Shown: positions 1 to 20,547 of the stretch, piece by piece
How positions within the stretch are numbered: the first letter of the stretch is position 1
How the letters are laid out: the number at the start of each line of letters is the position of its first letter
DNA from: an uncultured Gammaproteobacteria bacterium
GTDB taxonomy: Bacteria > Pseudomonadota > Gammaproteobacteria > GCA-002705445 > GCA-002716945
DNA: 64,000 bases
Direction of reading: 5' to 3'
NCBI GenBank assembly: GCA_902559355.1
Contig: CACEHM010000003.1
Location: 62,001-126,000, forward strand
Program-made: the position numbers and the translations under genes
The notes under the pieces: generated by a model
What the model saw: only the letters and a program-made list of their open reading frames with translations
The model's database searches: none
What the model was told of the DNA's origin: nothing

Positions 1-561
1 GGTATAGGAATGAACTCCTATACAAAAGGAGGCTTTATTGTTGATTCACCAAAAAATAATCTCTCTCAGAGCGAAATAATATTTCAGACCAAATTCCCAT
101 TAGAATGGAAAGCCATTCTTTTATTTGATAATAAAAAAAAAGGTCTTCATGGAAAATCTGAAAAAAAATTTTTTGCAAATACAAGTTCTCATAATCTACG
201 TAAGAACTTATCTGATATTACTTTAAATGAATTAATACCATCTGTGATTTATAAAGACTTTAGAATATTTGCAAAGAGTTTAACTAAATTCCAAAACTTG
301 AATGCTATGTTTTATTCAAAAGTACAGAAATCTCTTTATTTGAGTAATGATATAAACAAAATTATAAATCAAATTTCCAAGCGGTTTGTTGTAGGTTGCG
401 GACAAAGTTCTTGGGGACCAACAAGTTATATGTTTGTGGATTCTAAAAATGATCTAAATGAAATTTTGCCTATTTTAGATAAGGCAATAAGTATGTATAA
501 TAACCTCTCATACGAAGTCGTGTCAGCTAAAAATAAAGCACGTAAGCTAATTTATACATAG
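1..561 (+). CDS. mptG: Beta-ribofuranosylaminobenzene 5'-phosphate synthase, C-terminal part
   Basis: The reading frame is open from base 1, so the 5' end lies outside the window. What remains is the C-terminal 186 residues of a GHMP-fold protein. It begins in a GIGxxxYxxGGFIVDSP stretch and contains GQSSWGPTSY near residue 140, both typical of beta-RFAP synthase. The enzyme couples para-aminobenzoate with PRPP, releasing CO2 and pyrophosphate, as the first committed step joining the arene to ribose in tetrahydromethanopterin. It is followed after 9 bases by mtdB and sits in a run of H4MPT genes that includes pabB, which would supply pABA. Identification rests on these motifs and the strong context. 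The N-terminal ATP-like binding region cannot be assessed. Confidence 0.85.
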   Translation, partial: GIGMNSYTKGGFIVDSPKNNLSQSEIIFQTKFPLEWKAILLFDNKKKGLHGKSEKKFFANTSSHNLRKNLSDITLNELIPSVIYKDFRIFAKSLTKFQNLNAMFYSKVQKSLYLSNDINKIINQISKRFVVGCGQSSWGPTSYMFVDSKNDLNEILPILDKAISMYNNLSYEVVSAKNKARKLIYT

Positions 562-570
562 GAGATTTTC

Positions 571-3470: not shown

Positions 3471-4339
3471 TTAGAACTTTAATTCTTACTGAAAAGGAAG
3501 GATGGCATTTTCAACAACTCAAAACATCACTAGAAAAAAGAAAACATAAAGTTTTTTCGGGATGTCTATCAAATATTAGTCTATCGTTATCCAATAATAA
3601 AGCAGAGCTATTTATTAATGATGTACCTATTCCTGAAATAGATAATGTAATAGTAAGATTTGTTCCTGGTGGTACATTAGAAGAAATAACATATTATCTA
3701 AATATATTAAAAATATTTGAAGGTAAGGGAGTTAGGGTAATTAATACTGCACAAAAAATTGAGAGCACAGTGGACAAACTTTATACTTCATATATTCTGG
3801 GTAAAAATAATTTAAAAACACCTAGCACATTTATTTTCCGTAACTTCGAGAAAGCTAAAAAATTCTTAGAAACTCAATTACCCAAGGAGGGTATTGTGTA
3901 TAAACCTTTATTTGGATCACAAGGAGATAATGTTAAATTAATAAAAAGCTCTTACGAACTGAAAGAAATAGAAAACCTCTCAAACATTTTCTATTTTCAG
4001 CAATATTTGGATAATTCAATTAATCATGATTATAGAATATTAGTAATACGTAAAGATGAAACCTATAAATATTTTTATATGACAAGATATGGTGACAGCT
4101 TTATTAATAATGTTTCTAAAGGTGGATCATGCAAGAAAGAATCAATTGATAAGTCCATCATTGATCTAGCCTTGAAAGCGAGTAAATTATTAAATATCTC
4201 TTTTTGTGGCGTTGATATAATGAGTTTCAAAAATAATAACTATATCATCGAGATAAATAGTATCCCAGCATGGAGAGGATTACAGAACGTCGAAACAGAA
4301 GTAATATCTGATCACTTTGTAAATCTTTTAGTGACATAA
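3467..4339 (+). CDS. RimK-like ATP-grasp ligase of the H4MPT cluster (orf5 type)
   Basis: A 290-residue RimK-family ATP-grasp protein. Visible motifs are VYKPLFGSQGDNVKLI near residue 145 (the lysine and glycine-rich ATP loop), QQYLDNSINHDYRILVI near residue 180, and FCGVDIMSF...YIIEINSIPAWRGLQ near residues 245-275, which holds the Mg-binding Asp, Glu and Asn. RimK relatives attach glutamate to proteins or cofactors, and the archaeal relative MptN adds glutamate to H4MPT. A role in adding the side chain of the bacterial pterin is therefore likely but unproven here. The start overlaps the mch stop by ATGA. The gene is followed after 15 bases by the orf7-type gene, the same order seen in other methylotrophs. 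Confidence 0.75.
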   Translation: MIRTLILTEKEGWHFQQLKTSLEKRKHKVFSGCLSNISLSLSNNKAELFINDVPIPEIDNVIVRFVPGGTLEEITYYLNILKIFEGKGVRVINTAQKIESTVDKLYTSYILGKNNLKTPSTFIFRNFEKAKKFLETQLPKEGIVYKPLFGSQGDNVKLIKSSYELKEIENLSNIFYFQQYLDNSINHDYRILVIRKDETYKYFYMTRYGDSFINNVSKGGSCKKESIDKSIIDLALKASKLLNISFCGVDIMSFKNNNYIIEINSIPAWRGLQNVETEVISDHFVNLLVT

Positions 4340-4354
4340 ATATTGCAATGTAAT

Positions 4355-5230
4355 ATGGATTTATCAACTCATAAAATTAAATTTGTACAAGATCTAATTA
4401 AAAAATCATATATAAACTCATGCCAATTAGATATTGAGTGCATAAAACCTGGTAATGTAAATCAAACATCTGGACATCCTGATACTTCATCTGATGATTT
4501 TATAAAAAGCTTTATGACAACTGCTGAAATAATTTCTTCTAATGATTCTAGCTTAGGTGAAAAAATTGAAAACTCTGTGCTTATGACAAAAAGAGTTGTT
4601 AATAAAAATACTAATCTTGGTATTATTCTTTTGTGTTCATTATTTGTACAATCACTCTCATTAAAAAAAAATCTAACTCTTTGCGAGGCTATTGAATTTG
4701 TAGTTATAGAGGCAACCAGTGAAGACGTATCCAAATTATGTAATGCTATAAAGCTTGCCCAGCCAGGAGGATTAGGTTCTCATAGCGACTATGATGTAGC
4801 TTCAAATCCTGATATAGCCCTTCTTGATATTATGAAAATATCATCTGAATACGATATGATTGCTAAACAATATGCTTTATTTTTTGAAGATATATTTAGA
4901 TTTGTAATACCAGCACTAGATAATGCGTTTCGTAAGATCAATGATAAAAAACTAGCTATTTCTTATACTTTTCTTAAAATTTTAGAAAAGTACCCAGATT
5001 CACACATATGTAGAAAATATGGCAATAAAATAGCAAAAAAGACTAGCAATGAGGCCTCTGATTTGATAAAAATACTAGACGGGGATACTCGACACGAGTC
5101 ATGGGGTAAAAAACTAATGTCTCTTGATAATCATTTCAAAATGACTCGAGTGAATCCAGGAACATCAGCAGATTTATTGGTTGTTTCAATGATGATTTAT
5201 GATTATTTCATTGGGTTGCCAGATAGGTAA
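4355..5230 (+). CDS. CitG/MdcB-like triphosphoribosyl-dephospho-CoA synthase family protein (orf7 type)
   Basis: A protein of about 291 residues resembling CitG/MdcB enzymes, which build the 2'-(5''-triphosphoribosyl)-3'-dephospho-CoA prosthetic group. Supporting stretches are CIKPGNVNQTSGHPDTSSDDF near residue 28, NTNLGIILL near residue 85, KLAQPGGLGSHSDYDV near residue 135 and the C-terminal VNPGTSADLLVV. A homologue (Orf7) accompanies fae and mch in methylotrophs. No citrate lyase or malonate decarboxylase is nearby, so the substrate is probably related to the H4MPT pathway; this is inference. The ATG at 4355 is preferred over the TTG at 4343. The 42-base gap to fae contains a 14-base palindrome and the fae ribosome site. 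Confidence 0.75.
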   Translation: MDLSTHKIKFVQDLIKKSYINSCQLDIECIKPGNVNQTSGHPDTSSDDFIKSFMTTAEIISSNDSSLGEKIENSVLMTKRVVNKNTNLGIILLCSLFVQSLSLKKNLTLCEAIEFVVIEATSEDVSKLCNAIKLAQPGGLGSHSDYDVASNPDIALLDIMKISSEYDMIAKQYALFFEDIFRFVIPALDNAFRKINDKKLAISYTFLKILEKYPDSHICRKYGNKIAKKTSNEASDLIKILDGDTRHESWGKKLMSLDNHFKMTRVNPGTSADLLVVSMMIYDYFIGLPDR

Positions 5231-5239
5231 GCTACGTTC

Positions 5240-5253
5240 GTTTATTAATAAAC
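5240..5253. promoter_or_regulatory. Perfect 14-base palindrome upstream of fae
   Basis: The sequence gtttattaataaac reads the same on both strands and lies 20 bases before the fae start, just upstream of its aggag ribosome site. It could be an operator for a dimeric regulator. Palindromes made almost only of A and T do arise by chance in AT-rich DNA, so the function is unproven. Confidence 0.3.
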
Positions 5254-5272
5254 ATTAAAATAGGAGATAATA

Positions 5273-5785
5273 ATGGCAGTAGTCGACAAAGTATTAGTTG
5301 GTGAAGCGCTAGTTGTAACCGAAGGTGGGGATAACGAGATTTCACATATCGACTTGTTAATGGGACCACGTGGTTCTGCAGTAGAAGATGCATTTTGTAA
5401 CACTCTTTGTAATAACAAAGATGGTTTTACATCTTTATTAGCTGTAGTTTCACCTAACTTACTATGTAAACCAGCGACAGCTATGTTTAACAAAGTAACA
5501 ATTAAAGGTGCTAAACAAGCAGTTCAAATGTTTGGACCAGCTCAAGCAGCTGTTGCAAGAGCGGTAACTGAATGCGTTGAAGATGGAACAATCCCAGCTG
5601 ATGAAGCTGATGATATTTTCATTTGTGTAGGTGTATTTATTCATTGGGACGCTGATGATAATAAACGTATCTACGATTACAATTTTGAAGCTGTAAAAAT
5701 GGCAATCAAAAACGCTATAAGTGGTGAGCCTAAGGCACAAGATGTTGTTGCTAAGAAAGCTACAGAACACCCATTTGAAAAGTAA
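5273..5785 (+). CDS. fae: Formaldehyde-activating enzyme
   Basis: Fae catalyses condensation of formaldehyde with tetrahydromethanopterin to methylene-H4MPT, both detoxifying formaldehyde and feeding the oxidation pathway. The 170-residue protein is full length and highly conserved: [27 protein letters not shown] at the N-terminus with the active-site histidine in SHIDL, then [18 protein letters not shown] and [20 protein letters not shown]. The start has an excellent aggaga ribosome site seven bases upstream. The gene looks less AT-rich than its neighbours, which together with the strong ribosome site and the terminator directly after it suggests high expression. It ends the rightward H4MPT operon. 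Confidence 0.97.
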
Positions 5786-5804
5786 TCATATTTGATTATG
5801 TTAG

Positions 5805-5837
5805 AAAGAGCTGGTTACTTGCCAGCTCTTTTTTTTA
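5805..5837. terminator. Rho-independent terminator after fae
   Basis: A ten-base-pair stem (aaagagctgg / ccagctcttt) with a seven-base loop at 5815-5821 is followed by a run of T. It begins 20 bases after the fae stop. The last codons and stop of the leftward HisA-like gene lie inside the loop and 3' arm, so the element also terminates that gene on the other strand, where the 5' arm supplies three T residues. Confidence 0.9.
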
Positions 5838-6492
5838 TTAGAAATGAATTTTTATAATTTTTAAATAGCAGTGAAGATACTAACACTCCAGAGAACCCCA
5901 TAGCCTCTAGCTTATTAATATCAAATGTAGATTTTATTCCACCACCCACGTAATATTGAATTGAACTTTTTTTACTCATTGAGCGAATATATTTATAATC
6001 TGGACCTTTATCATTACCCACGTCAGCTATATTCATAAAAATAATTTTGTTTTTATATAAAGAATCAAAATTTTTGAAACTATCTAAACCTAGTAATTTA
6101 TTCTTGTAGTCATATGAATGAATATAATTTTTATATATATAATTAATATTTTTAATAGATAAACAATTTTCACTACATAATATTGGTTCAATATTCCTCT
6201 TAGCTAAACGTTGATCGATTTTTCCTCCAATATCTACCCAAAAATGAATATTTTTATTCACACTTGCAATGTCCTTTATTAAATCAATATTATGATTTTC
6301 ACTTATCAGTGAATTAATATCTGCAATATAAAATATGGAAGGACGATAAATTTTAGTCATTTCTTTTATAAACTTAAATGGATCCGATGAAAAGCCTGAA
6401 TCCTTACTGATAGGGTGGTATCTATCTCTATCACCTTGTTTAGCTTTTACAACTTTACCGTCTTTTATATCAATTGCAGGTATAATGTTCAT
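5815..6492 (-). CDS. HisA-like TIM-barrel protein of the H4MPT/methanofuran cluster
   Basis: A 225-residue TIM barrel related to HisA. The N-terminus MNIIPAIDIKDGKVVKAKQGDRDRY matches the HisA pattern including the first catalytic aspartate, and the C-terminal YYVGGGIKSTFDINKLEAMGFSGVLVSS matches the phosphate-binding glycine loop. No other his genes are nearby, and the gene is embedded among cofactor genes, so a role in methanofuran or H4MPT synthesis is more likely than histidine synthesis. HisA-like proteins are known in methylotroph H4MPT clusters, but I do not know a proven reaction. Its start codon is back to back with the divergent mfnD-like gene, and its stop falls in the fae terminator. 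Confidence 0.7.
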   Translation of the reverse strand: MNIIPAIDIKDGKVVKAKQGDRDRYHPISKDSGFSSDPFKFIKEMTKIYRPSIFYIADINSLISENHNIDLIKDIASVNKNIHFWVDIGGKIDQRLAKRNIEPILCSENCLSIKNINYIYKNYIHSYDYKNKLLGLDSFKNFDSLYKNKIIFMNIADVGNDKGPDYKYIRSMSKKSSIQYYVGGGIKSTFDINKLEAMGFSGVLVSSLLFKNYKNSFLIKKRAGK

Positions 6493-6493
6493 G

Positions 6494-7414
6494 ATGAAAA
6501 AAATTCTTATATATGAGTATATTACAGGCGGAGGTTTGATAGGAAAAAAATTTGATCATAGTCTACTTTCGGAAGCTAATCTAATAATAGATTCACTCAT
6601 TAGCAAGACAGACAGTATTGTAAACTTTTTTTGTGACTATCGTTATAAGTATAAAAATAATAAGAACGCTATCCTTATTACTGCTAATAATCATAGCATC
6701 ATCTATGATACTGACATGATAAACTCTTATGATTATTTCTTACCAATTTGTCCAGAATCAGATTTAATACTATATAACTATATCAAGGAAATAAATCCAT
6801 ATGTTGATAATATGAAATTTTCATCTCCTAAAACTATTTTAGTAACAAGTGATAAATTATTATTAAAAGATATTTGTAATAGATATAATATTTCACATGC
6901 AGACTCTTATATTTCAAAATCAAAACAATCATTATATATAATCAAAGATAGATTCGGATGTGGTTGTAATAATGTTAGAGTTACTAGTAATAAGAATTTA
7001 GAAATCCCAGCAAATCGAATAATTGAAAAATATATTCCTGGTGATTCATATAGCGTTAATCTTTATATATCTGATACAGGGTATGAAATACTTACAATTA
7101 ATCAACAAATAATTAACAGATATAATAATGTTCTTAAGTTGGATGCTATCAATGTGAATATCTATCCATATTTTAGAAATTCACTTTTTAAATTTATTGA
7201 AGCGATTTTAGTAGCTCTTCCTGGCTTAAAGGGGTTTATAGGTTTAGATTTGATTTATAATAAAGAAGGCATATTTTTGGTAGATATCAATCCTAGATAT
7301 ACAACTTCTATGTCTGCAATTAGTAAATGTAAAGATAGACATATACTTGACTACATTAATATATCAAAGAATGAACAAACTGGATCATCATGCAAAATAA
7401 AGCTGCAAGTATAA
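6494..7414 (+). CDS. MfnD-like ATP-grasp ligase (tyramine/tyrosine-glutamate ligase family)
   Basis: An ATP-grasp protein of 306 residues starting with IYEYITGGG, a hallmark of MfnD and its methylotroph relatives. The ATP-grasp core follows: IIKDRFGCGCNNVRV near residue 150, EKYIPGDSYSVNLYIS near residue 175, and GFIGLDLIYNKEGIFLVDINPRYTTSM near residues 245-270. Archaeal MfnD ligates glutamate to tyramine during methanofuran synthesis; in Methylobacterium the analogue carries tyrosine. The ATG at 6494 is chosen because it places the conserved N-terminus correctly; ATGs at 6485 and 6491 are alternatives. The start abuts the HisA-like start on the other strand. The gene overlaps the next one by 25 bases. 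Confidence 0.75.
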   Translation: MKKILIYEYITGGGLIGKKFDHSLLSEANLIIDSLISKTDSIVNFFCDYRYKYKNNKNAILITANNHSIIYDTDMINSYDYFLPICPESDLILYNYIKEINPYVDNMKFSSPKTILVTSDKLLLKDICNRYNISHADSYISKSKQSLYIIKDRFGCGCNNVRVTSNKNLEIPANRIIEKYIPGDSYSVNLYISDTGYEILTINQQIINRYNNVLKLDAINVNIYPYFRNSLFKFIEAILVALPGLKGFIGLDLIYNKEGIFLVDINPRYTTSMSAISKCKDRHILDYINISKNEQTGSSCKIKLQV

Positions 7415-8433
7415 CTAAAATAGGTTGGGACATAGGTGGTGCCCACCTGAAATATTGCGTCATATCTAGTGACTCAGACATTATATGGTATGACATTATT
7501 GATTTTGAATTTTGGAAGGAATATAAAAAATTCAAAAATATAGTAATAAAGATAAACTCAATTTATAGTAAAAAAAACCATCATACTGAAAACTATTTTA
7601 CAATGTCAGCAGAAATGTGTGATTGTTTTGATAATAGGGCTGATGGCGTTGATTATATTGTTAAACAAATTATAGAAAGTAAGTATCCATCATATATCTT
7701 TACTAAAAATGGCTTTCAAAATTCATTAAAGATAAATAAAGCCTCATTTGAATATATAGGCTCATTTAATTGGTACGCAACTGCATTGTATATATCCTCT
7801 TTATTTTCTGACATTATAGCTATTGATTTTGGTTCGACCACATGCGATTTTCTAATTATAAAAAATGGAAAAATTAAAAATAAAAGAACATCAGATATAA
7901 CTGGCTTACAATCCAATGAACTTCTATATACTGGTTGTGCACGCACACCTATATATGCACATACTAATGAAATAACATACAAAAATAAGATTTATAAGAT
8001 AATACCGGAACAATTTTCTTCTATGTCTGATATTTACGTTATTTTGGATAAGTTACCTGTCGATGATATATATTCTAAAGCACTAAATATGAATGACCAT
8101 TCTAAAATAAATGCATGTAAGAGAGTATCTAGATCATTTGGCTTTGATTTTGCATATAATAAATTAGATTTGATTAAGAATTTATCGAAACAAATATATG
8201 ATTCTCAGATTAAGTTAATTGAAAATAATATTTTATTTCACAAGAGAAAACATTTTAATGAGAATAAAAAATTAGATATTATGGGATTAGGATTAGGATA
8301 TAGAGCAATATCACATATCGGTCAAAAAAATAATCTTAATCATATAGATATTAACAGTATCTTGGAGATGGAAATTGAAAGAGGTTCTGAGTTAACAAAA
8401 TTATTTTCATCGTATGTAATGTGTAGGTTATAA
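7390..8433 (+). CDS. H4MPT-linked C1 transfer pathway protein (MfnF-like, hydantoinase A-like fold)
   Basis: A 347-residue protein beginning IGWDIGGAHLKY, the first phosphate loop of an actin/hydantoinase A-like ATPase fold, with a second loop IAIDFGSTTCDFLIIKNGKI near residue 140 and a late MGLGLGYRAI near residue 298. This arrangement defines the family annotated as H4MPT-linked C1 transfer pathway protein, which includes archaeal MfnF. MfnF joins the aminomethylfuran and tyramine parts of methanofuran. Its location between the mfnD-like gene and pabB fits cofactor assembly. Assignment to MfnF proper rather than a sister family is inference. Confidence 0.7.
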   Translation: MQNKAASITKIGWDIGGAHLKYCVISSDSDIIWYDIIDFEFWKEYKKFKNIVIKINSIYSKKNHHTENYFTMSAEMCDCFDNRADGVDYIVKQIIESKYPSYIFTKNGFQNSLKINKASFEYIGSFNWYATALYISSLFSDIIAIDFGSTTCDFLIIKNGKIKNKRTSDITGLQSNELLYTGCARTPIYAHTNEITYKNKIYKIIPEQFSSMSDIYVILDKLPVDDIYSKALNMNDHSKINACKRVSRSFGFDFAYNKLDLIKNLSKQIYDSQIKLIENNILFHKRKHFNENKKLDIMGLGLGYRAISHIGQKNNLNHIDINSILEMEIERGSELTKLFSSYVMCRL

Positions 8434-9771
8434 ATGACATATAAAATTGAACAACTAGACTTTTCAATACCCTCTCATAAATATTTTGAATTTATAAAAA
8501 ATAATGATTGGTCTATATATCTTAACAGCAATAATGATAAATATCCTGATCAAAGATTTGATATCTTAACTTCTGACCCACTTGAGAAAATTATCTTGGA
8601 TGATGATATATCTAATAATCAATCTTTTAATAGTGATATCTTTTCTTCTTTGAAGAATGCGATGGAAAAATATAAATGTGAATCTAAGGATGATATTCCT
8701 TTTTGTGGGGGAGCTATGGGTTTTATTTCATATGATTATGGCAATAAACTTCACAATATTGAAAATAAAAATAATAAAGATTTCCAATATCCTTTGATAG
8801 CTTTTGGTATCTATGATTGGTGCATAATTTATGATTATTTAAAAAGAAAATCATTTATCTTGTATCATCAAAAAAATAAACTAATTGATAGCATATTAAA
8901 ATTATCAATTAGCCAGCTATCTTCAAATGAATCAGAATCATTTAACTGTACATCTAGATGTGAATCTAATATGAATTATGATTTATATCATGCAAAATTA
9001 TCTAAAATTATGAACTACATTAAAAGAGGCGATTGTTATCAAGTCAATCTTGCTCAAAGATTTTCTCTTGGATTTGATGGTGATGAATATTCAATATATA
9101 AGACATTAACCAAATCATTCGCGTCACCATATTCAGCGTTTATGAATTATCCATTTGGTAAGATTTTATCATTTTCACCGGAAAGATTTTTATCTATAAA
9201 TAATGGATTTGTTGAAACAAAACCTATTAAAGGCACGAGACCAATATCTATTGATCCAGTAATTGATAAAAAAAATATCAAAGATTTAAAAACATCAGAA
9301 AAAGATAAAGCTGAAAATCTTATGATTGTTGATTTACTGAGAAATGATTTAGGTATGAATTGTAAAAATGGAAGTATAAAAGTTGATAAGCTTTTTGAGA
9401 TTGAGACATTTGCAAATGTTCATCACCTTGTCAGCACTATAAGTGGTGAAGTAGATAATGATTCAAATATATATAATCTGATCAAAGATGCTTTTCCTGG
9501 TGGCTCCATCACTGGAGCTCCCAAGCTTAGATCTATGGAGATAATCGAAGAGTTAGAGCCGAATAACAGGTCAATTTATTGTGGAAGCATTGGTTATATT
9601 GGCTTCGATGAAAAAACTGATTTAAATATTTCAATTAGAACTATGCTTGCAGTTAACAAGAATTTATATTTTTGGGGCGGAGGAGGTATCGTAAACGATT
9701 CTGATATAAGGAGCGAATATAATGAATCAATTGATAAAGTTAAACCGCTTCTTGATACATTTTCTGATTAA
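8434..9771 (+). CDS. pabB: Aminodeoxychorismate synthase component I
   Basis: PabB converts chorismate with ammonia to 4-amino-4-deoxychorismate, the precursor of pABA, which is needed for both folate and H4MPT. The 445-residue protein has the chorismate-binding domain in its C-terminal half: QVNLAQRF near residue 205, FSPERFL near residue 247, TKPIKGTRPIS near residue 265 with the key lysine, LRNDLGMNCKNGSI near residue 300, and GGSITGAPKLRSMEIIEELE near residue 350. The PIKGTRP motif favours PabB over anthranilate synthase. It begins directly after the preceding stop. Its 3' end overlaps the convergent mfnB by 32 bases. No pabA or pabC is in the window. Confidence 0.9.
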   Translation: MTYKIEQLDFSIPSHKYFEFIKNNDWSIYLNSNNDKYPDQRFDILTSDPLEKIILDDDISNNQSFNSDIFSSLKNAMEKYKCESKDDIPFCGGAMGFISYDYGNKLHNIENKNNKDFQYPLIAFGIYDWCIIYDYLKRKSFILYHQKNKLIDSILKLSISQLSSNESESFNCTSRCESNMNYDLYHAKLSKIMNYIKRGDCYQVNLAQRFSLGFDGDEYSIYKTLTKSFASPYSAFMNYPFGKILSFSPERFLSINNGFVETKPIKGTRPISIDPVIDKKNIKDLKTSEKDKAENLMIVDLLRNDLGMNCKNGSIKVDKLFEIETFANVHHLVSTISGEVDNDSNIYNLIKDAFPGGSITGAPKLRSMEIIEELEPNNRSIYCGSIGYIGFDEKTDLNISIRTMLAVNKNLYFWGGGGIVNDSDIRSEYNESIDKVKPLLDTFSD

Positions 9772-10453
9772 TATTTTTTATTATTTTTATAATATTTTGA
9801 CATTGAATCGACTCAATATTATCTCTTGAATTAGGTGAACATAACGCACCCCTGAATCCAATAAAATCAGATTTAAATTTCATTGCGTATTCAATAGTAT
9901 TTTGTTGCATAGAGCCAGAGAGTCCACAAAACTTTTTTATCTTATGACATTCTGAAACAAAAGAGTTTATTAAATTATCATCCAAAATATCGAGAGTTGA
10001 TTTACTAGACTTCTTAACTGTATCTATCATTAGACCATCATAGTCAAGTTTACATATTTTTTTTATTATGTTGATGTCAATATTGTTATCCGCAAATAAA
10101 ACACCTACAGTTTTAATATTTAAATTAAATGCTTTTTTCAAAAATATAGAATGCATATCAAGATAATTTATATCAAATATCCCAATTTTAATATAATCAA
10201 TTTTTGAAGAGTTTAGAAACTCTAGTCTTTCATAAATGATATCTTTATTTGGATGATCACTATTACCAGCAGTAACACTTAATATTCTATTATCGAGTTC
10301 ATTAGAAATAAGCTCGACTTCTTTATTTCCTACATATCCTAAGGGACCATCATCAATATTTTTTATATCAATTATATCAAAATCATAATCAGCCATAAGC
10401 GAAGCTTCTTTGATATTTTTGATACTAGCTAGAGATTTAATCATTATTTTCAA
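9740..10453 (-). CDS. mfnB: (5-formylfuran-3-yl)methyl phosphate synthase-like protein (MfnB, DUF556)
   Basis: MfnB makes the furan precursor of methanofuran from two molecules of glyceraldehyde 3-phosphate. The 237-residue protein shows the DUF556 blocks DFDIIDIKNIDDGPLGYVG near residue 25 with the catalytic-type lysine, YIKIGIF near residue 90, GLMIDTVKKSSKSTL near residue 140 and the late CGLSGSMQ and FIGFRGALC. It corresponds to Orf9 of methylotroph H4MPT clusters. It is the last gene of a leftward run from mobA and overlaps the DUF447 gene by 17 bases; a second ATG at 10444 would shorten that overlap. Its 3' end reaches into pabB on the other strand. Confidence 0.8.
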   Translation of the reverse strand: MKIMIKSLASIKNIKEASLMADYDFDIIDIKNIDDGPLGYVGNKEVELISNELDNRILSVTAGNSDHPNKDIIYERLEFLNSSKIDYIKIGIFDINYLDMHSIFLKKAFNLNIKTVGVLFADNNIDINIIKKICKLDYDGLMIDTVKKSSKSTLDILDDNLINSFVSECHKIKKFCGLSGSMQQNTIEYAMKFKSDFIGFRGALCSPNSRDNIESIQCQNIIKIIKNINQKMYQEAV

Positions 10454-11012
10454 AGTAGATATTTATCTTTTTCTCTATCCATTCCCAAGCTTCTTTTTCA
10501 TTTTTACCAGCAGTTTTATCAATTCCAATTTTTAGGTATTTCATCTCATCCCTAATTTTATTATCATCAATTCTACCAAGACGTGTTGAGAGTACTGCTA
10601 ATTCTATAACAGAAAACTGAGCTCTATTGAAACCCAAAAATGGTCTATGGATTTGTTCGTTGATAACTTCACATATAATTCTTGGCCTTACAGGATCATC
10701 ATGATCTTCAATCGCTTTAACATTCATGTGTGTATTTGTATTTTGAAGGTGAGGAGCACATTTATCATCAAATATTTCTAGCTCCCAATCTTTTTTTTCT
10801 CCAGTAACTATTCCGGAAAAAACTTTAACATTATCTATAAAATTTACTGTTGCGATTTTTGTTTCTAAAATATTATTTAAAGTTTGAGACGGCTTGAAAG
10901 GTGAAATCTGTACTAATTTTTTTGAATCAGTCTGAAGAAATTTCACACCCATCGGAGCAATATGTACTTTTTTATCTTTATTGACTGTAGTGACGATTAC
11001 TTCGTGAATCAT
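10437..11012 (-). CDS. DUF447 family protein of the H4MPT cluster
   Basis: A 191-residue protein with the DUF447 N-terminus MIHEVIVTTVNKDKKVHIAPMGV, like the beta-barrel FMN-binding split-barrel fold, followed by DVKVFSGIVTG near residue 60 and FNRAQFSVIELAVLSTRLGRI near residue 128. DUF447 proteins occur in methanogens and in methylotroph H4MPT clusters; their reaction is not established to my knowledge. The start overlaps the stop of the upstream DHPS-related gene by ATGA, and the 3' end overlaps mfnB. I infer a redox or flavin-linked step in cofactor synthesis, with low certainty on function. Confidence 0.7.
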   Translation of the reverse strand: MIHEVIVTTVNKDKKVHIAPMGVKFLQTDSKKLVQISPFKPSQTLNNILETKIATVNFIDNVKVFSGIVTGEKKDWELEIFDDKCAPHLQNTNTHMNVKAIEDHDDPVRPRIICEVINEQIHRPFLGFNRAQFSVIELAVLSTRLGRIDDNKIRDEMKYLKIGIDKTAGKNEKEAWEWIEKKINIYFENND

Positions 11013-12391
11013 TTTCTTTTCTTAAATGTTGGTCCTAATTCTTTAGACTGTAATTTATTATCTGCCTTTTTGTCTATCAAACAACCCCAATCTAACTCCT
11101 CATCCTGTGAGTACTCTTTCTTTAATTGATATGCAATTTGTGCTCTAGCAAGCTCAACACCTAAATAAAATGAGTGCCCTGAATCTTCATCTACTTCTAG
11201 GAATTCATAAAAATCATAAGGATCTGAAAATACTTTATAAATCGTTTTATTGAATAGATGCACTCCATCATCATTTACATATATACGATAATTCTTATCC
11301 TTTATATTACTTTTCATATCACTTAATTCATCAGACGTGTAAGCATAATCTTTATGGCCATGATTTATTAATAAGCCATTATTGATATGCTTTGGAGTAA
11401 TATTATTCTCTGATGCTGCATGGATTATTCTCCTTGCCAAATCAGTTTCTCTAATTACTGTTGAACAATGTCTACTTACTTGTGTAGTAAGAATATGATT
11501 CAATTTTAATTCTTCAACTATACCAAGCATTATCATATTCATACCGGAGGTATCAGCATGTGTGAGCTCAGTTATATTTCCTATCCCAATCATAATATGT
11601 ATGTCAGGATACTTTTCTCTTAAGTAGATATACCTCTCTATGCTCTTAGTGAAGCCATAAGAAATAGGGTCCAGTATTGGATCAGCTATGAAAGTAAGTT
11701 TATCCTGTAATGCTCTATCAATGAGCTTGTAGAAATTCTGCATATTGTAATCTGTTGGAATGAGAACAGGGTATGAATCTAAATTTTCCAATATGTGATA
11801 AGTCTCATCTTTAATACTTAGCAAATAATCTGCCCCTGCTTTTGAGCCTCTAATTAGTTCTTCAGTGTTATGGGAGTCTATGCTTACATAAAAGTTTCTA
11901 TTTTTTAGCTCTTGCACTATTTCTTCCAAGTGAGGAAATTTTTTATTTGGTAAGCAGCCAATATCAATCACATCAGCACCCTCCAATCTAAAATATTCAG
12001 CTCTTTTGATTACTTCCTCGACTGTCATATTTAAAGCATCAGTAATTTCTCCAAATATAGATGTTTCAAATTTCGATAAATCATATTTTACAGGACTAGC
12101 ACCAAAAAGTGTGGGCAAGTCTTTTAGTTCATCAGGACCACGTATTATTTTTTTGTTAATATTTTCTTTCAAAGATTCTAAGTCCCCGCGAACTCTTCCT
12201 GGGATAATAATTTCATCAAAAGAATCTATATTTCCTATTCTTCTCTCAATCATATCTGTTGTAAGTAAAGCAGCAACATTTACATTCAGATTTCTTATCT
12301 CATATGTAAAATCTTTATTTTCGATAGATTCAATAACTGTTCTTAATCCTTTCTCTGCTAACTTACCGGTAATAAATAATATATTTTTCAT
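11009..12391 (-). CDS. Dihydropteroate synthase-related protein of H4MPT synthesis (DUF6513 plus DHPS)
   Basis: A 460-residue protein with three parts. Residues 1-120 form the N-terminal region seen in archaeal-type DHPS-related proteins (MKNILFITGKLAEKGLR, then EIIIPGRVRGD). Residues 120-340 form a dihydropteroate synthase-like barrel with RAEYFRLEGADVIDIGCLPN, FYVSIDSHNTEELIRGSKAGADYLLSI, and the C-terminal IGIGNITELTHADTSGMN. The rest is a specific extension. It probably couples the pterin diphosphate with the ribofuranosylaminobenzene phosphate made by MptG, as proposed for methanogen homologues. ATGA overlaps at both ends link it to the DUF447 and dmrB-like genes. Confidence 0.8.
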   Translation of the reverse strand: MKNILFITGKLAEKGLRTVIESIENKDFTYEIRNLNVNVAALLTTDMIERRIGNIDSFDEIIIPGRVRGDLESLKENINKKIIRGPDELKDLPTLFGASPVKYDLSKFETSIFGEITDALNMTVEEVIKRAEYFRLEGADVIDIGCLPNKKFPHLEEIVQELKNRNFYVSIDSHNTEELIRGSKAGADYLLSIKDETYHILENLDSYPVLIPTDYNMQNFYKLIDRALQDKLTFIADPILDPISYGFTKSIERYIYLREKYPDIHIMIGIGNITELTHADTSGMNMIMLGIVEELKLNHILTTQVSRHCSTVIRETDLARRIIHAASENNITPKHINNGLLINHGHKDYAYTSDELSDMKSNIKDKNYRIYVNDDGVHLFNKTIYKVFSDPYDFYEFLEVDEDSGHSFYLGVELARAQIAYQLKKEYSQDEELDWGCLIDKKADNKLQSKELGPTFKKRK

Positions 12392-12918
12392 TTATTTAGT
12401 TTCTTAAGACTCATTTTTAATGCTTTCACATTATCAACAACGGTTACATTTTTAAATTTTTTTAATGTTTTATAGTTTTTTAAATCTATATCTCTTGGAT
12501 ATAGAGTCACAAGCTTTTTAGGCGCTTGAGTTATAACAACAGGTTCGGTATCACATGCAAAAACTAAAGAATGGACCTCACATTTTCCTGCCTGTGCAAA
12601 CATATTAGTCACCAAATTAGTTGAAATACCCTGTGCCATTAATGCAATAGTGTTAGAAGTAGCCGGTGAGATAACAATCAATTTATAAACTGATTCATAT
12701 AAAAGGCTAACTGGGGCAGAACTAGATGTTATATCTTTAAATATTTTTATCTTCTTCTTTTTAAAGATTGATAAATCATAGTTATACCATTTTAATACTT
12801 CCTCACCAGCTTTACTTAAATATAAATCAACATTCTCAAGTGTAAGCAATAATTCTATTGATTCTTTTAGATAGTGACCAGAACCGGTAATACACCATGC
12901 AATCTTTTTTTTATCCAT
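12388..12918 (-). CDS. Archaeal-type flavoprotein, probable dihydromethanopterin reductase (DmrB-like)
   Basis: A 176-residue flavoprotein of the UbiX/Dfp-like fold. The N-terminus KKIAWCITGSGHYLKESIELL and the central KLIVISPATSNTIALMAQGISTNLVTNM form the FMN site. DmrB from Burkholderia reduces dihydromethanopterin to H4MPT, and its genes lie in H4MPT clusters as here. No ferredoxin-type cysteine cluster is present, so electrons must come from a separate reductase. It overlaps mobA by eight bases and the DHPS-related gene by four. The alternative, a generic phosphopantothenoylcysteine decarboxylase-like protein, is less likely given the location. Confidence 0.7.
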   Translation of the reverse strand: MDKKKIAWCITGSGHYLKESIELLLTLENVDLYLSKAGEEVLKWYNYDLSIFKKKKIKIFKDITSSSAPVSLLYESVYKLIVISPATSNTIALMAQGISTNLVTNMFAQAGKCEVHSLVFACDTEPVVITQAPKKLVTLYPRDIDLKNYKTLKKFKNVTVVDNVKALKMSLKKLNK

Positions 12919-13519
12919 ATATTTTACTTATTAAATTTTTATTTATTTCTATATCTTCTTTTGAATTTATATTTAAGAACATTTCATTATCATGATTAAA
13001 TAATACTTCATCAAATCCACATGAAGTATACCATTTATCGATCTTTCTCTCCCCTGATTGTAGGAATTCTTGAAGATTATTAGCTAAAGATGAATCTATG
13101 CAAGCATATACAGGCTGTAATCTATCCCCGGTTTTAATTACTTTTATTGAGCTATTTCCAGTATGGTTAAGCAGGGTTTCAAAATATGCCTTATTTATAA
13201 AAGGTCCGTCACATGGCAATACTACTAACTTATGGTTTTTACATTTTTTAAGAGCTGTGTATATACCTGAGAGAGGTCCCTGGAAATCATCTAAGATATC
13301 TGTATATACCCTCTTATGTATTTGTTCATATTCTTTGAGGTTGTTATTTGCTATCACAAATACATCTGATGAGAATTCATTTGCTATACTGATAATCCTT
13401 GAAAGCACTAATTTGCCATTGAACCTTATTAATCCTTTGTCTTTACCTTCCATTCGTGATGATTTGCCACCAGCTAAGATTGCAACTGATACATCATCCT
13501 TTTGTAATTTGTGTGACAT
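12911..13519 (-). CDS. mobA: Molybdenum cofactor guanylyltransferase
   Basis: MobA transfers GMP from GTP to molybdopterin, giving the guanine dinucleotide cofactor. The 202-residue protein has the signature VAILAGGKSSRMEGKDKGLIRF at residues 12-33, DILDDFQGPLSGIYTAL near residue 75 and LPCDGPF near residue 99. It heads the leftward cofactor operon. In this setting it probably serves the formylmethanofuran dehydrogenase (Fhc/Fwd) of the C1 pathway, which is not in the window; that link is inference. The start lies 50 bases from divergent dusA, so both promoters must share this short AT-rich gap. Confidence 0.85.
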   Translation of the reverse strand: MSHKLQKDDVSVAILAGGKSSRMEGKDKGLIRFNGKLVLSRIISIANEFSSDVFVIANNNLKEYEQIHKRVYTDILDDFQGPLSGIYTALKKCKNHKLVVLPCDGPFINKAYFETLLNHTGNSSIKVIKTGDRLQPVYACIDSSLANNLQEFLQSGERKIDKWYTSCGFDEVLFNHDNEMFLNINSKEDIEINKNLISKIYG

Positions 13520-15348: not shown

Positions 15349-15677
15349 GAGAGTTAGTTATACAGCTACTATGTTCTTCATAGAGGAAAGTCCGGGCTCC
15401 AGGGATAAAAGCGCCAGGTAATACCTGGAAAATGTGAGTTTTGGAAAGTGCTGCAGAAAATAACCGCCTTCATTGAAGGTAAGGGTGAAAAGGTGAGGTA
15501 AGAGCTCACCGCTGATTAGGTAACTAATTAGGCAAAAGTAAACCCCGCTTGGAGCAAGGCAAATTTGTGATTAATCCCAAAATAATCACGTGGTTGCTGC
15601 TTATGAGGTTATTGGTGACAATAACCCTAGATAAATGGCTGTACAAGACAGAACCCGGCTTATCAACTAACTCTCAA
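15349..15677 (+). ncRNA. rnpB: RNase P RNA, bacterial type A
   Basis: This is the catalytic RNA that removes 5' leaders from pre-tRNAs. The universally conserved block gaggaaagtccgggctcc lies at about 15383-15400, and the conserved 3' element acaagacagaacccggctta at about 15644-15663. The ends pair as helix P1: gagagttagtt at 15349-15359 with aactaactctc at 15665-15675. The length of roughly 328 bases is a little short of E. coli (377), fitting a compact genome. Location just upstream of mraZ is also seen in pseudomonads. No U-tract terminator follows. Confidence 0.95.
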
Positions 15678-15693
15678 ATTCTCATATATACAC

Positions 15694-15796: not shown

Positions 15797-15842
15797 GTGT
15801 TGATAAATGGAATATTTTGTCAATTAGTGGAGAATAATGGAT
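15797..15842 (+). promoter_or_regulatory. Likely MraZ-binding box: 10-base phased TG repeats
   Basis: TG dinucleotides recur every ten bases at 15798, 15808, 15818, 15828 and 15838, within tgttg, tggaa, tgtca, tggag and tggat. MraZ of E. coli binds tandem TGGG-type repeats spaced by five bases upstream of its own gene, giving the same period. Three of the five copies keep TGG. The fourth copy doubles as the mraZ ribosome site (gtggag) and the fifth includes the start codon, so bound MraZ would block both promoter clearance and translation. Confidence 0.6.
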
Positions 15843-16298
15843 AATTTATTTAAAGGCATACATAACATCAACCTGGATTCAAAAGGTAGATTAGGTATTC
15901 CTGTAACCTACAGAGACCATATCACTGGCCTTTTAAAAGGTTCTATGGTTATTACTATCGATACTGAAGAAAAGTGTCTTCTACTTTACCCCTCTGGAAT
16001 ATGGGCGAAAATACAAAGCAAAATCAATGAATTACCATCATTTAATAAGAATGCTAGAAGAATACAAAGATTATTAGTGGGTCATGCTGAAGATATTGAT
16101 GTTGATTCCTCTGGCAGAATACTTATTTCTAAACCATTGAGAGAATATGCATCATTAGTTAAAAAAATTATTCTTATTGGTCAGGGCGATAAGTTCGAAA
16201 TATGGGATCAAAATTTATGGAATCAAAATGTAGATAAGTGGAGAGACGAGGTGACTTCTAATGATGATGCTGAAGCACTGAGTGATATTAGCATATGA
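15837..16298 (+). CDS. mraZ: Transcriptional regulator MraZ
   Basis: MraZ is a SpoVT/AbrB-fold regulator that represses the dcw cluster. The 153-residue protein carries two repeats: MDNLFKGIHNINLDSKGRLGIPVTYR at the N-terminus and HAEDIDVDSSGRILISKPLREYA near residue 84, each with the DxxGR(L/I) signature. A gtggag ribosome site precedes the ATG by four bases and forms part of the probable MraZ box. The stop overlaps the next gene's start by ATGA. It opens the division and cell wall cluster as usual. Confidence 0.95.
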   Translation: MDNLFKGIHNINLDSKGRLGIPVTYRDHITGLLKGSMVITIDTEEKCLLLYPSGIWAKIQSKINELPSFNKNARRIQRLLVGHAEDIDVDSSGRILISKPLREYASLVKKIILIGQGDKFEIWDQNLWNQNVDKWRDEVTSNDDAEALSDISI

Positions 16299-16489
16299 TC
16301 AATAACAACTATTTCAAAACTCTTGGCGTATCTCCAAATGAAGATTTGGATATTATTAAAAAAGCATTCAAACGCTTAGCATCTAAATATCATCCTGATA
16401 AAAACAATGACAACATTGATGCTCAAAGAATCTTTATAAAAATTACAACTGCATATGAAAAAATAATGGAGTTTAGAAAAAATGGATAA
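16295..16489 (+). CDS. Minimal J-domain (DnaJ-like) protein
   Basis: A 64-residue protein consisting only of a J domain: NNYFKTLGVSPNEDLDIIKKAFKRLASKYHPDKN with the HPD motif at residues 33-35, then a short helix ending AYEKIMEFRKNG. J domains stimulate the ATPase of DnaK-type Hsp70s. There is no glycine-rich, zinc-finger or membrane segment. It overlaps mraZ by four bases and rsmH by eight, so it is firmly part of the operon. A J protein at this point in the dcw cluster is not part of the usual order; its client is unknown. Confidence 0.85.
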   Translation: MINNNYFKTLGVSPNEDLDIIKKAFKRLASKYHPDKNNDNIDAQRIFIKITTAYEKIMEFRKNG

Positions 16490-17414
16490 TACATCTTTTC
16501 ATATCCCAGTATTGAAAGCAGACTCTGTTCAACAGCTAATTACAGATGAAAATGGCATTTACATAGATGCAACTCTAGGCTATGGAGGACATACAAGAGA
16601 GATTCTAGACTCAACAAGCAAGAAAGCTAGAATATATGGAATAGATAAAGATATTGATGCTATCGAATTTAATACGAACGAATTATCAGATGAGAAGAGA
16701 TTTACCCTAAGACATGGATGTTTTTCTTCTCTTCATGAATACGCGAAGACATGGAACATTTATGGGGCTGTAAATGGGATACTATTTGATTTAGGAGTTT
16801 CATCAGTTCACTTAGATGATGGTGATAGGGGCTTTAGCTTTACTAAGGACGCTCCATTAGATATGAGATTTAATAGATTGGAGGGTAAAACTGTTTCTGA
16901 TTACTTGAATAAATTATCAGAAAAAGAAATTGAAAGAATACTCCGAGTGTATGGACAAGAAAAGTTCTCAAAAAGAATTGCTCGAAATATCATTAAGTAC
17001 AGAGAAAAAAACAGAATAACAAATACTTTAGAACTTGTTGATATTATTAATAAATCTGTTTTAGTAAATGATAAGCATAAACATAATGCAACAAGGTCAT
17101 TTCAAGCTCTTAGAATATTCATCAATAAAGAATTGGATGTACTAAAGGATGTTTTAGAGAAATCTTTCGATGTTCTTGCGCCAAAAGGAAGGCTTGTATT
17201 AATCACTTACCATTCTCTAGAAGAGAGAGTGATTAAAGATTTTCTAATATATACAGATCAATACTTATCGGCGCCAAGAAAAATGCCAATAAAAAAAGAT
17301 TTTATGGAAAAAATGTTTAATTTAATAAAAAAAATCAAGCCATCCGATGAAGAGATTGAAATAAATCCTCGTTCAAGATCTGCCAAAATTAATGTACTTG
17401 AGAAACAATCATGA
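16482..17414 (+). CDS. rsmH: 16S rRNA (cytosine(1402)-N(4))-methyltransferase
   Basis: RsmH (MraW) N4-methylates C1402 in the P site of 16S rRNA using SAM. The 310-residue protein has HIPVLKADSVQQLI at the start, the SAM-binding IYIDATLGYGGHTREIL near residue 27, GILFDLGVSSVHLDDGDRGFSF near residue 100, PLDMRFN and the C-terminal LVLITYHSLEERVIKDFL near residue 240. Standard second enzyme gene of the dcw cluster, here displaced by one gene. The stop overlaps ftsL by ATGA. Confidence 0.95.
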   Translation: MDNTSFHIPVLKADSVQQLITDENGIYIDATLGYGGHTREILDSTSKKARIYGIDKDIDAIEFNTNELSDEKRFTLRHGCFSSLHEYAKTWNIYGAVNGILFDLGVSSVHLDDGDRGFSFTKDAPLDMRFNRLEGKTVSDYLNKLSEKEIERILRVYGQEKFSKRIARNIIKYREKNRITNTLELVDIINKSVLVNDKHKHNATRSFQALRIFINKELDVLKDVLEKSFDVLAPKGRLVLITYHSLEERVIKDFLIYTDQYLSAPRKMPIKKDFMEKMFNLIKKIKPSDEEIEINPRSRSAKINVLEKQS

Positions 17415-17680
17415 ACCTAGGGACAACCTTAATATTAATAGTTTTGATTACTGTATCTGCATTTGGCGCTATTTTTGTTAAATACCAAAACAGAATACTT
17501 AATATAGAAGTTTCAAAGAATGAGCGAATATTATTTGAAACATCAGAGAGATATAGAGAGCTTTTAGAGCAAAAGGTAAATCTCACTGATAGTAAACTTC
17601 AAAAGAGCGGTTTAGGTGAAGCACTTGGAATGAGCCTTCCATCTAAAGAAAGAATTTTAATCATGAACTTAAACAATTAG
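17411..17680 (+). CDS. ftsL: Cell division protein FtsL
   Basis: An 89-residue bitopic membrane protein: one transmembrane segment at about residues 4-24 (TTLILIVLITVSAFGAIFV) followed by a heptad-like periplasmic coiled coil rich in Leu and Glu (residues 27-65) and the terminal SLPSKERILIMNLN. FtsL forms a complex with FtsB and FtsQ that signals to FtsWI. Sequence conservation is always low in this family, so the call rests on size, topology and position after rsmH. It is followed unusually by ftsZ rather than ftsI. Confidence 0.85.
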   Translation: MNLGTTLILIVLITVSAFGAIFVKYQNRILNIEVSKNERILFETSERYRELLEQKVNLTDSKLQKSGLGEALGMSLPSKERILIMNLNN

Positions 17681-17690
17681 GAGGAACACC

Positions 17691-18836
17691 ATGTTTGAAA
17701 TAGTAGATAATTATAATCAGAACGCGGTTATCAAAGTCATTGGTGTTGGAGGTGGTGGCGGTAACGCAATCATTTCAATGCTTAAGTCTCAAATTCATGG
17801 AGCTGACTTTATAATTGCAAATACAGATGTCCAGGCATTAAGAGATGTGAATGGAGCAACTACTGTACAGATTGGTTCTGAAATCACAAAAGGTTTAGGT
17901 GCTGGGGCAGATCCTGAAAAAGGTAAACAAGCAGCATTGGAAGCAAGTGAAATTTTAAAAGAGTCTATAGAAGGTGCTGATATGCTTTTTATTGCAGCTG
18001 GTATGGGTGGTGGAACAGGAACTGGTGCCGCACCTGTGATCGCCCAGATCGCTAGAGATCTTGGTATTTTAACGGTTGCTGTAGTAACGAAACCATTTGA
18101 ATTTGAAGGTCCAGAGAGAATGTCTAATGCTCAAGAAGGCATTGATAACCTTGAGCAATGGGTGGATTCACTTATAGTGATACCTAATTCGAAATTAAAA
18201 GAAGTATATGGCGGTGGAGAGTCTATATTTTCATCATTCGAAAACGCTAACGACGTTCTAAGAGGAGCTGTTAAAGGCATAACTGAGATAATAACTATTA
18301 GAGGATTCATGAATGTTGATTTTGCTGATGTTAAAACAGTAATGTCTGGAATGGGAAAAGCCATGATGGGATCAGGAGTTTCCTCAGGCGAGAATCGTGC
18401 TATTGATGCTGTAACCACAGCTCTTAGTAGTCCACTACTAGATAATATTGATCTTCAAGGCGCAAGCGGTGTATTAGTTAATATCACTTCTGGTTCTGAT
18501 CTAACTACTGATGAATTCGAGGTTATTGGTAGTAAAATTAGAGAAATAGCAAATGAAGATGCAAAAATTATAACTGGCTGTATTAAAGAAGATGATAACA
18601 TTGGAGATTTACGTGTGACTATTATTGCGACTGGTTTTTCACAAGATAATAAAATAGATGTAAATTCTTCTGAAGTTAACCAAAGTACACAAGAAAGCAC
18701 AACTATTAATCCTAGTGTTTCTTATCCTAGCAATAGTGAAGCAAAAAATGATGCAATAACACAAGTAGATGTTAGTCAGCAGGAAGATCAGACATCTCTC
18801 GATATTCCAGCATTTTTAAGACAACAAGCTGATTAA
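17691..18836 (+). CDS. ftsZ: Cell division GTPase FtsZ, at an unusual position
   Basis: FtsZ is the tubulin-like GTPase that forms the Z ring. The 381-residue protein has IKVIGVGGGGGNAI near residue 15, the tubulin signature GGGTGTGAAP near residue 106, and the C-terminal conserved peptide SLDIPAFLRQQAD, which binds FtsA, ZipA and ZapD. A linker of about 50 polar residues precedes that peptide. The ribosome site aggaggaa is one of the best in the window, consistent with the high level FtsZ needs. It lies between ftsL and ftsI, whereas the normal place after ftsA is empty (ftsA is followed by lpxC). A perfect hairpin follows the stop. Confidence 0.97.
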   Translation: MFEIVDNYNQNAVIKVIGVGGGGGNAIISMLKSQIHGADFIIANTDVQALRDVNGATTVQIGSEITKGLGAGADPEKGKQAALEASEILKESIEGADMLFIAAGMGGGTGTGAAPVIAQIARDLGILTVAVVTKPFEFEGPERMSNAQEGIDNLEQWVDSLIVIPNSKLKEVYGGGESIFSSFENANDVLRGAVKGITEIITIRGFMNVDFADVKTVMSGMGKAMMGSGVSSGENRAIDAVTTALSSPLLDNIDLQGASGVLVNITSGSDLTTDEFEVIGSKIREIANEDAKIITGCIKEDDNIGDLRVTIIATGFSQDNKIDVNSSEVNQSTQESTTINPSVSYPSNSEAKNDAITQVDVSQQEDQTSLDIPAFLRQQAD

Positions 18837-18862
18837 TAATATAAAAAAAAATCAGAAACTTA

Positions 18863-18888
18863 GGCTGCCATTATTTATAATGGCAGCC
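18863..18888. terminator. Perfect 11-base-pair hairpin between ftsZ and ftsI
   Basis: The arms ggctgccatta (18863-18873) and taatggcagcc (18878-18888) pair perfectly around a four-base loop ttta, followed by tttcttgt. It looks like a terminator or attenuator after ftsZ. The only nearby ATG for ftsI (18880) is inside the 3' arm, so the same structure could also control ftsI translation. The U-tract is imperfect, so read-through into the rest of the cluster is expected. Confidence 0.6.
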
Positions 18889-20547
18889 TTTCTTGTATTG
18901 ATAATAATAATCATTAGACTCTATCAGATTCAAGTTAATGCAACAGATTGTTTTTATTTTAATAAAGGATCATGCAAAGAGAATATTCTTGAAGTGGCTG
19001 AAAAAAGGCAAATTCATAGTGTTAAACTGACCGCACAAAGAGGAAGCATCTATGATAGAAACAATAATGTTTTAGCTATGTCTTTACCAATAAAAACTCT
19101 TTGTATTAATCCGAGTAGATTATATAAAAGTAACAATAAATCTATTATGGAATTATCTAACGATCTTGGTTTATCTGAAAAAAGATTAAAAAAAATTATT
19201 GATAAAAATAAAAACAAAAAAGAATTTTATTTGAAAAGACATGTCTCGAAAGATTTCTATTTGAAAGTTAAGAGTTTAAATAATCCTAATCTTTATTTTA
19301 TTAATGAAAATAAAAGAAGTTATCTAGGCGGTAAACCTTTTTCAAATATTATAGGATTTACAAATATAGATGATAAAGGACAAGAAGGCATTGAATTCAT
19401 AAGTAATAAAATTCTATTACCAGAGCATGGATTGAAAAAAGTGAAAAAAGATAATATCGGTCGTCCCATTGAAACAATAGGTATTATTAGAAAACCAGTC
19501 CCAGGCCAAGATATTTTTCTCACATTGGATAAAAGAATACAAATAATTGCATATGAAACCCTCAGAAAATATATTACAAAATTTAAAGCTGAGAGTGGCT
19601 CTATAATTTTAATTGAATCAAATACAGGCGACATAATGTCAATGACTAACTACCCATCATTTAATCCAGATAGAAGGAGTGAGTTTAGAGGGAAGAAAAT
19701 TAAAAACCGAGCTGTCTATGATTTAATTGAACCTGGATCTACTATAAAACCACTGATAATATATTACGGCTTACACAATGAAGTAATTAGTGAATCAACA
19801 ATAATAAATACTGCGCCGGGCGTTATTCTACTTGAAGATAAAGAAATTAAAGATTGGAAATATTTAGGAAAAGTAAGTCCAAGAGATATTATTAAATTAT
19901 CTAGTAACATCGGAGCAGCAAAAGTCTCAAGTAAACTTTCAAAGAAACAGCTTATAGACGGATTAAATGAACTAGGTTTCGGTCAATCACTATTTCTAAA
20001 TTTACCCGGATCAAAAACTGGCTCTTTACCGCTTTCATCTGAGTTATCAAATTCAGGTCATATGAGTCTCGGTTATGGATATGGTCTCTCAACGTCACTA
20101 ATGCATCTTGCAAGTGCTTACACTACACTTGCTAATTATGGCAACAGGGTACAAATAAATTATTTGAAAAATAATAATAAAGACTCTAAAAAAGATAATA
20201 TTTTAAATAGGGATAACTCAATAAAAGTATTAGATATGATGAGAGATGTAGTTCATTCAAACGATGGAACAGGAAGGCAGGCTAAAGTTGAAGGATACAC
20301 GGTTTATGGCAAGACAGGTACAGTTAGACAGATTATAGATGGTAGATATTCAAAAGATAAACATAACGCGTTATTTGTTGGAATACTAGGAGACCCTGAA
20401 CCTAAATATGTTGCTGCTGTCATAGTAAGGAGCCCAAAAAATAAGGAAGGCTCCGGAGGTCTTCATGCAGCACCTGTTTTTGGCGAATTTATGCAACATT
20501 CAATGAGAATTTTAAATGATATGAGTTATGCTAATAACAGACAATAA
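18880..20547 (+). CDS. ftsI: Peptidoglycan D,D-transpeptidase FtsI (PBP3)
   Basis: FtsI is the septal transpeptidase that cross-links peptidoglycan with FtsW. The 555-residue protein has an N-terminal membrane anchor (about residues 1-17), the dimerisation-domain start LTAQRGSIYDRNNNVLA, and the three active-site motifs: STIK with Ser287, SSN at about 341 and KTG at 478. The start is doubtful. The ATG at 18880 lies inside a hairpin, has no ribosome site and truncates the basic cytoplasmic tail. The frame stays open upstream through KKNQKLRLPLFI, with an ATT at 18832 overlapping the ftsZ stop, but with no ATG, GTG or TTG. The 3' end overlaps murE by 20 bases. Confidence 0.93.
   Translation: MAAFLVLIIIIIRLYQIQVNATDCFYFNKGSCKENILEVAEKRQIHSVKLTAQRGSIYDRNNNVLAMSLPIKTLCINPSRLYKSNNKSIMELSNDLGLSEKRLKKIIDKNKNKKEFYLKRHVSKDFYLKVKSLNNPNLYFINENKRSYLGGKPFSNIIGFTNIDDKGQEGIEFISNKILLPEHGLKKVKKDNIGRPIETIGIIRKPVPGQDIFLTLDKRIQIIAYETLRKYITKFKAESGSIILIESNTGDIMSMTNYPSFNPDRRSEFRGKKIKNRAVYDLIEPGSTIKPLIIYYGLHNEVISESTIINTAPGVILLEDKEIKDWKYLGKVSPRDIIKLSSNIGAAKVSSKLSKKQLIDGLNELGFGQSLFLNLPGSKTGSLPLSSELSNSGHMSLGYGYGLSTSLMHLASAYTTLANYGNRVQINYLKNNNKDSKKDNILNRDNSIKVLDMMRDVVHSNDGTGRQAKVEGYTVYGKTGTVRQIIDGRYSKDKHNALFVGILGDPEPKYVAAVIVRSPKNKEGSGGLHAAPVFGEFMQHSMRILNDMSYANNRQ

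Follow-up and report, generated by a model that had tools for sequence, protein, structure and literature searches.

A gene for a 64-residue J-domain-only protein is fixed in the dcw operon of an order of uncultured Gammaproteobacteria

Few gene orders in bacteria are as conserved as that of the dcw cluster, and it is unusual to find a chaperone gene fixed within it throughout an order. The locus described here raises the question of what a very small J-domain protein does between mraZ and rsmH, and whether it connects the Hsp70 protein DnaK with the division proteins encoded beside it. In the window, the whole stretch of 64,000 nucleotides that was analysed, the gene for RNase P RNA, rnpB (15350..15678, + strand; Rfam RF00010, 271 bits), lies directly upstream of mraZ (15837..16298, +; PF02381, E=3.6e-33). 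It is followed by the J gene, named dcwJ here (16295..16489, +), rsmH, also called mraW (16482..17414, +; PF01795, E=3.4e-99), ftsL (17411..17680, +; PF04999, E=6.2e-6), found at the same location in relatives, and ftsZ (17691..18836, +; PF00091/PF12327). As in E. coli, the order is mraZ-rsmH-ftsL-...-ftsI-mur genes-ftsQ-ftsA-lpxC, with lpxC directly after ftsA in the window, and the cluster differs from that of E. coli in the extra J gene after mraZ and in the location of ftsZ. The canonical place of ftsZ, as in E. coli, is after ftsA, whereas throughout this order the gene has moved between ftsL and ftsI, and the copy at 17691..18836 is the only one in the genome.

The organisms of the order are uncultured, and the genome containing the window comprises 1.04 Mb at 93% completeness. 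Directly upstream of the operon region, at 1-13519 of the window, tetrahydromethanopterin-linked C1 genes are located, encoding methylene-H4MPT dehydrogenase, Mch, Fae, a DUF6513 pterin-binding-like protein, ATP-grasp ligases and a flavoprotein. The C1 genes and the genome size indicate that the organism is probably a streamlined, methylotrophic gammaproteobacterium.

The dcwJ reading frame runs from an ATG to a TAA stop over 64 codons and encodes the protein MINNNYFKTLGVSPNEDLDIIKKAFKRLASKYHPDKNNDNIDAQRIFIKITTAYEKIMEFRKNG with the HPD motif at residues 33-35; its assignment as a J-domain-only protein is based on the PF00226 match, conservation, the predicted fold and dN/dS. Residues 5-57 match the Pfam DnaJ domain (PF00226, E=1.6e-16) with 60.5 bits, above the curated cut-off of 27.8, and the HPD motif is invariant among relatives. 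An AlphaFold2 model built from 17 relatives (pLDDT 87.7) has helices at residues 4-10, 18-32 and 41-63, which correspond to the J-domain helices. The best PDB matches of the model are J domains, including that of DnaJ bound to DnaK (5nro; Foldseek, probability 1.00), and the weak E-value of about 3e-3 is due to the very short chain; by both the model and its best matches the protein has the J-domain fold. The chain stops at residue 64, just past helix III, and neither model nor sequence contains helix IV, a G/F region, a zinc finger, a C-terminal client domain or an extension; the tail beyond helix III is short and mainly basic. Thus the free-standing J domain with an intact HPD, which the original prediction had placed at 16295-16489, was borne out by the profile match and the modelled fold. 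The same prediction had described overlaps of a few bases with both neighbours, and the sequence gives 4 nt with mraZ (ATGA, the mraZ stop at 16298 overlapping the J start codon) and 8 nt with rsmH (start at 16482, overlapping the J stop), so that dcwJ is translationally linked to the dcw operon. Since a Shine-Dalgarno sequence is absent at its own start, DcwJ is most likely made by coupled translation from the dcw message.

Does this protein belong to a known J-protein family? The nearest NCBIfam models are those with the J domains of DnaJ, AtcJ and DjlA, and all of them score far below their curated cut-offs. The best family match is DnaJ (NF008035, E=7e-15), but membership in TIGR02349/NF008035 is precluded by the score (54.9 bits versus 338) and by the length of only 64 residues; DcwJ shares with the J domain of E. 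coli DnaJ (5nro/1xbl) the fold, the HPD loop and the basic helix II, and lacks helix IV, the G/F region, the zinc finger and the C-terminal client domains. DjlA (NF006948) is matched with 29.6 bits versus 162. The J domain of DjlA likewise has a basic tail beyond its last helix, helix III, and carries HPDK, and that of E. coli has the same acidic pair ahead of helix II, whereas DcwJ is devoid of the membrane segment, the TerB-like domain and the insert after HPD. In a tree of 103 J domains (68 columns; the dcwJ branch is long) the DcwJ proteins form their own clade (98/90), the DnaJ proteins of the order fall in another one, and 31 gammaproteobacterial DjlA J domains make up a single clade (100/100) apart from DcwJ. 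A split or decayed DnaJ or DjlA was rejected on these separate clades, although E. coli DjlA likewise has the acidic pair and ends after helix III. AtcJ, a cold-adaptation protein of Shewanella, resembles DcwJ in being very short, in its HPD motif, in sharing an operon with candidate partner genes and in synteny conserved within a clade. It differs in its 21-residue C-terminal extension binding AtcC and in its operon, atcJABC instead of dcw. DcwJ scores 40.7 bits against the AtcJ cut-off of 150 (NF050028), has no AtcC-binding extension and has mraZ and rsmH rather than atcABC as neighbours; an AtcJ ortholog was rejected on the score and the missing extension.

The spread of the arrangement was analysed in 25 genomes of the order, representing one family and six genera. 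In all 21 genomes in which mraZ was found, a J frame lies between mraZ and rsmH, with ftsL and ftsZ following, so the mraZ-J-rsmH order sought in relatives recurs and dcwJ holds a conserved place in the operon. The frame is free-standing and keeps the HPD motif across the six genera. In one of the 21 (G002) the J gene and its neighbours alike contain frameshifts, apparently from sequencing errors. In the remaining four genomes, with a completeness of 72-87%, neither the J gene nor mraZ was found, and the absence is therefore best read as missing sequence. Across the order the J start lies at -4 or -1 relative to the mraZ end (0, abutting, in one genome), the junction being of the ATGA or TAATG type in nearly all genomes, and rsmH starts at -8, -4 or -1 relative to the J end; the overlaps are retained while frames and lengths vary. 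As the 21 genomes come from independent assemblies, an assembly artefact or a single-genome gene is ruled out. Three genomes with contamination of 3-6% (G009, G018 and G023; loci L135, L137 and L138) contain an additional, diverged mraZ that has no J gene beside it, probably on a foreign contig.

Outside the order, a J gene was found at none of 108 gammaproteobacterial junctions read downstream of mraZ, and in nearly all of these loci the mraZ-rsmH gap is too short for one. A scan of a one-genome-per-species collection, which finds close relatives only, revealed no dcw-linked J gene beyond the order, and the remaining close relatives were J domains within longer proteins, DnaJ in most cases. 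A profile search (E<=1e-15) of 299 genomes of the phylum gave no stand-alone relative; the J domains found belong to frames of at least 107 aa, of DnaJ length or cut by contig ends. In a full-text search of 5.39 million open-access papers, none was found that describes a J gene within the dcw cluster.

The sequence of DcwJ is under purifying selection. Where synonymous change is unsaturated, dN/dS (Nei-Gojobori) is about 0.08-0.13, similar to the values of neighbouring genes (mostly 0.01-0.15), although these figures are rough because most comparisons are near saturation and the J gene is short. Relaxed selection is excluded. Conservation in six genera together with the low dN/dS excludes a chance ORF, and a spurious frame is ruled out by the HMM score and the fold as well. 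The same two results oppose confinement to one genome under relaxed selection, the outcome that the original prediction had set against itself; the presence of a J gene in the dcw operon is confirmed and much strengthened. The selection on the amino acid sequence, the HPD motif and the fold also bear on the suggestion that the frame serves mainly as a translational relay from mraZ to rsmH, with the J protein as a by-product. The overlaps at both ends and the missing Shine-Dalgarno sequence would suit such a relay, but a relay needs no J domain, and we consider this explanation highly improbable.

Residues invariant in the DcwJ members read are M1, L10, D17, I21, K22, A29, H33, P34, D35, K36, F47, A53, Y54 and I57, i.e. 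the J-domain core and the HPD loop. No extra conserved patch marking a partner or client site is recognisable in the alignment, and as DcwJ has diverged at a rate close to that of FtsL (mean distance 0.48 versus 0.51), there is no sign of added constraint on a partner surface. The distances of DcwJ correlate about equally (0.88-0.91) with those of MraZ, RsmH and FtsL, with FtsZ left out of the comparison, and were uninformative as a means to single out one client.

Three J proteins were found in the order: DnaJ (about 373 aa), HscB (about 170 aa) and DcwJ. In the genome containing the window a single cluster on contig C4 encodes DnaK, DnaJ and GrpE, and another Hsp70 adjoins an HscB-like protein on contig C2, as expected for HscA. 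With the rest being DnaJ and HscB, DcwJ is the only accessory J protein retained in a strongly reduced genome. The main rival to a dedicated role in the operon starts from this inventory: after loss of CbpA and DjlA, DcwJ would be a general accessory J protein topping up DnaK on many clients, and the dcw location would provide steady growth-linked expression. J-only proteins can stimulate Hsp70 without a client domain of their own, and the unrecognisable client site accords with such generality. However, one fixed place with coupling on both sides in six genera, and without a stand-alone relative elsewhere, fits a dedicated role better, and we regard the general role as rather unlikely.

The explanation that we favour, and to which we give about an even chance, is that DcwJ is an order-specific J-domain-only co-chaperone of DnaK, fixed in the dcw operon, whose likeliest partners are the products of its own operon. 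The gene would have become a fixed dcw member in the common ancestor of the order, whose genomes are small, and its product would be translated, by start-stop coupling, from the message that also encodes MraZ, RsmH, FtsL and FtsZ. By analogy with the family, helix II and the HPD loop would bind DnaK at the interface of its NBD and SBD, the mode described for J domains (PMC7289447), and the HPD loop and the basic helix II would stimulate ATP hydrolysis by DnaK. DcwJ may then deliver DnaK to a partner touched by the J domain or the short basic tail; as there is no client domain, specificity would have to come from surface or tail contact or from synthesis beside the clients. The best precedent is AtcJ, a mini J protein through which DnaK is brought to partners encoded in the same operon (PMC6715715); DcwJ lacks an AtcJ-type C-terminal partner-binding extension, which counts against the favoured explanation. 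A DnaK-linked role for the operon products is likely from position, conservation and the AtcJ precedent; DcwJ is probably made with, and dedicated to, the early division proteins, and the role in division suggested by the original prediction is plausible.

Which product would be served is speculative, for FtsZ, MraZ or any other client is named from position only; FtsZ would be the first choice and MraZ, by proximity, the second. FtsZ is put first because DnaK associates with FtsZ in Staphylococcus aureus and E. coli dnaK mutants form filaments (PMC5572376), because the J-like protein ARC6 organises FtsZ in plastids (PMC9407819), and because ftsZ has moved into the unit order-wide. Against FtsZ as a client, its level and location in S. 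aureus are independent of DnaK (PMC5572376). ARC6/Ftn2, compared here by its literature description, is likewise a J-like protein of FtsZ-based division and differs from DcwJ in being a large membrane protein of cyanobacteria and plastids (PMC9407819). Replacement by DcwJ of a lost ClpX control of FtsZ was rejected, ClpX scoring above its own cut-off in 20 of the 25 genomes.

A special case of the favoured explanation is directed at MraZ: DnaK and DcwJ would dismantle or inactivate DNA-bound MraZ oligomers and so tune dcw transcription. DnaK and DnaJ remodel other DNA-bound oligomers, e.g. replication initiators, and among its neighbours dcwJ is coupled most tightly to mraZ, the J gene being lost solely in genomes where mraZ was not found. 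The adjacency is explained equally well by operon structure, though, and no link between DnaK and MraZ was found in the open-access literature search, which makes this version unlikely.

Besides the relocated ftsZ, the operon has a second order-wide oddity at the start of ftsI (frame 18832..20547, +; PF00905/PF03717). A conserved RNA hairpin (18862..18889, +), detected by a terminator-like scan match, lies in the 5' part of the ftsI frame, within the codons of the FtsI membrane segment. In all 20 genomes of the order that were read (L312-L331) it lies 22-30 nt past the ftsZ stop. The arms are GGCTGCYRTTAT/ATAAYRGCAGCC in genus g1 and TGGAGACAATA/TATTGTCTCCA in g2-g6; the sequence is wholly different, but compensatory changes preserve the stem. 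The stem is fully paired (100%) in 7 sequences of g1 and 97.7% paired in 12 of g2-g6, and compensatory double changes occur at four and three pairs, respectively. The observed pairing was matched by 1/500 shuffled controls in g1 and by 0/500 in g2-g6, and slid controls failed; Rfam gave no match at the gathering score. The hairpin may mark where the mraZ-J-rsmH-ftsL-ftsZ unit ends or serve as its attenuator, or it may be a processing site; as attenuator or processing site it would set the FtsZ:FtsI ratio.

The ftsI ATG at 18880 falls inside the hairpin, and in the codon survey of the 20 genomes ATG, GTG and TTG were absent from the frame upstream of the hairpin in 18, while CTG and/or ATT is present at or near the ftsZ stop in all. 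The survey suggests non-AUG initiation of ftsI coupled to ftsZ, with ATT 18832 or CTG 18829, both at the ftsZ stop, as the likely start. A shared frameshift is argued against by G016, where ftsZ and ftsI occupy the same frame. A weak non-AUG start, together with a hairpin limiting transcription or translation, would yield much FtsZ and little FtsI from one message; from this we infer that mraZ-J-rsmH-ftsL-ftsZ acts as one expression unit.

We tentatively extend the favoured explanation to a division-dedicated Hsp70 co-chaperone, in which DcwJ would hand FtsZ or MraZ to DnaK and would have evolved together with the ftsZ relocation and the hairpin setting FtsZ:FtsI; this is possible, though we would not call it probable. 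If true, Z-ring assembly or dcw transcription would be under direct chaperone control. Mutants have long shown that DnaK affects division, and we know of no dedicated adaptor; a J protein of 64 residues linked to five genes of the division cluster would fill this role, and it is small enough for direct testing with purified proteins. The order-wide fixation of dcwJ suggests a dedicated chaperone job in the division of these cells.
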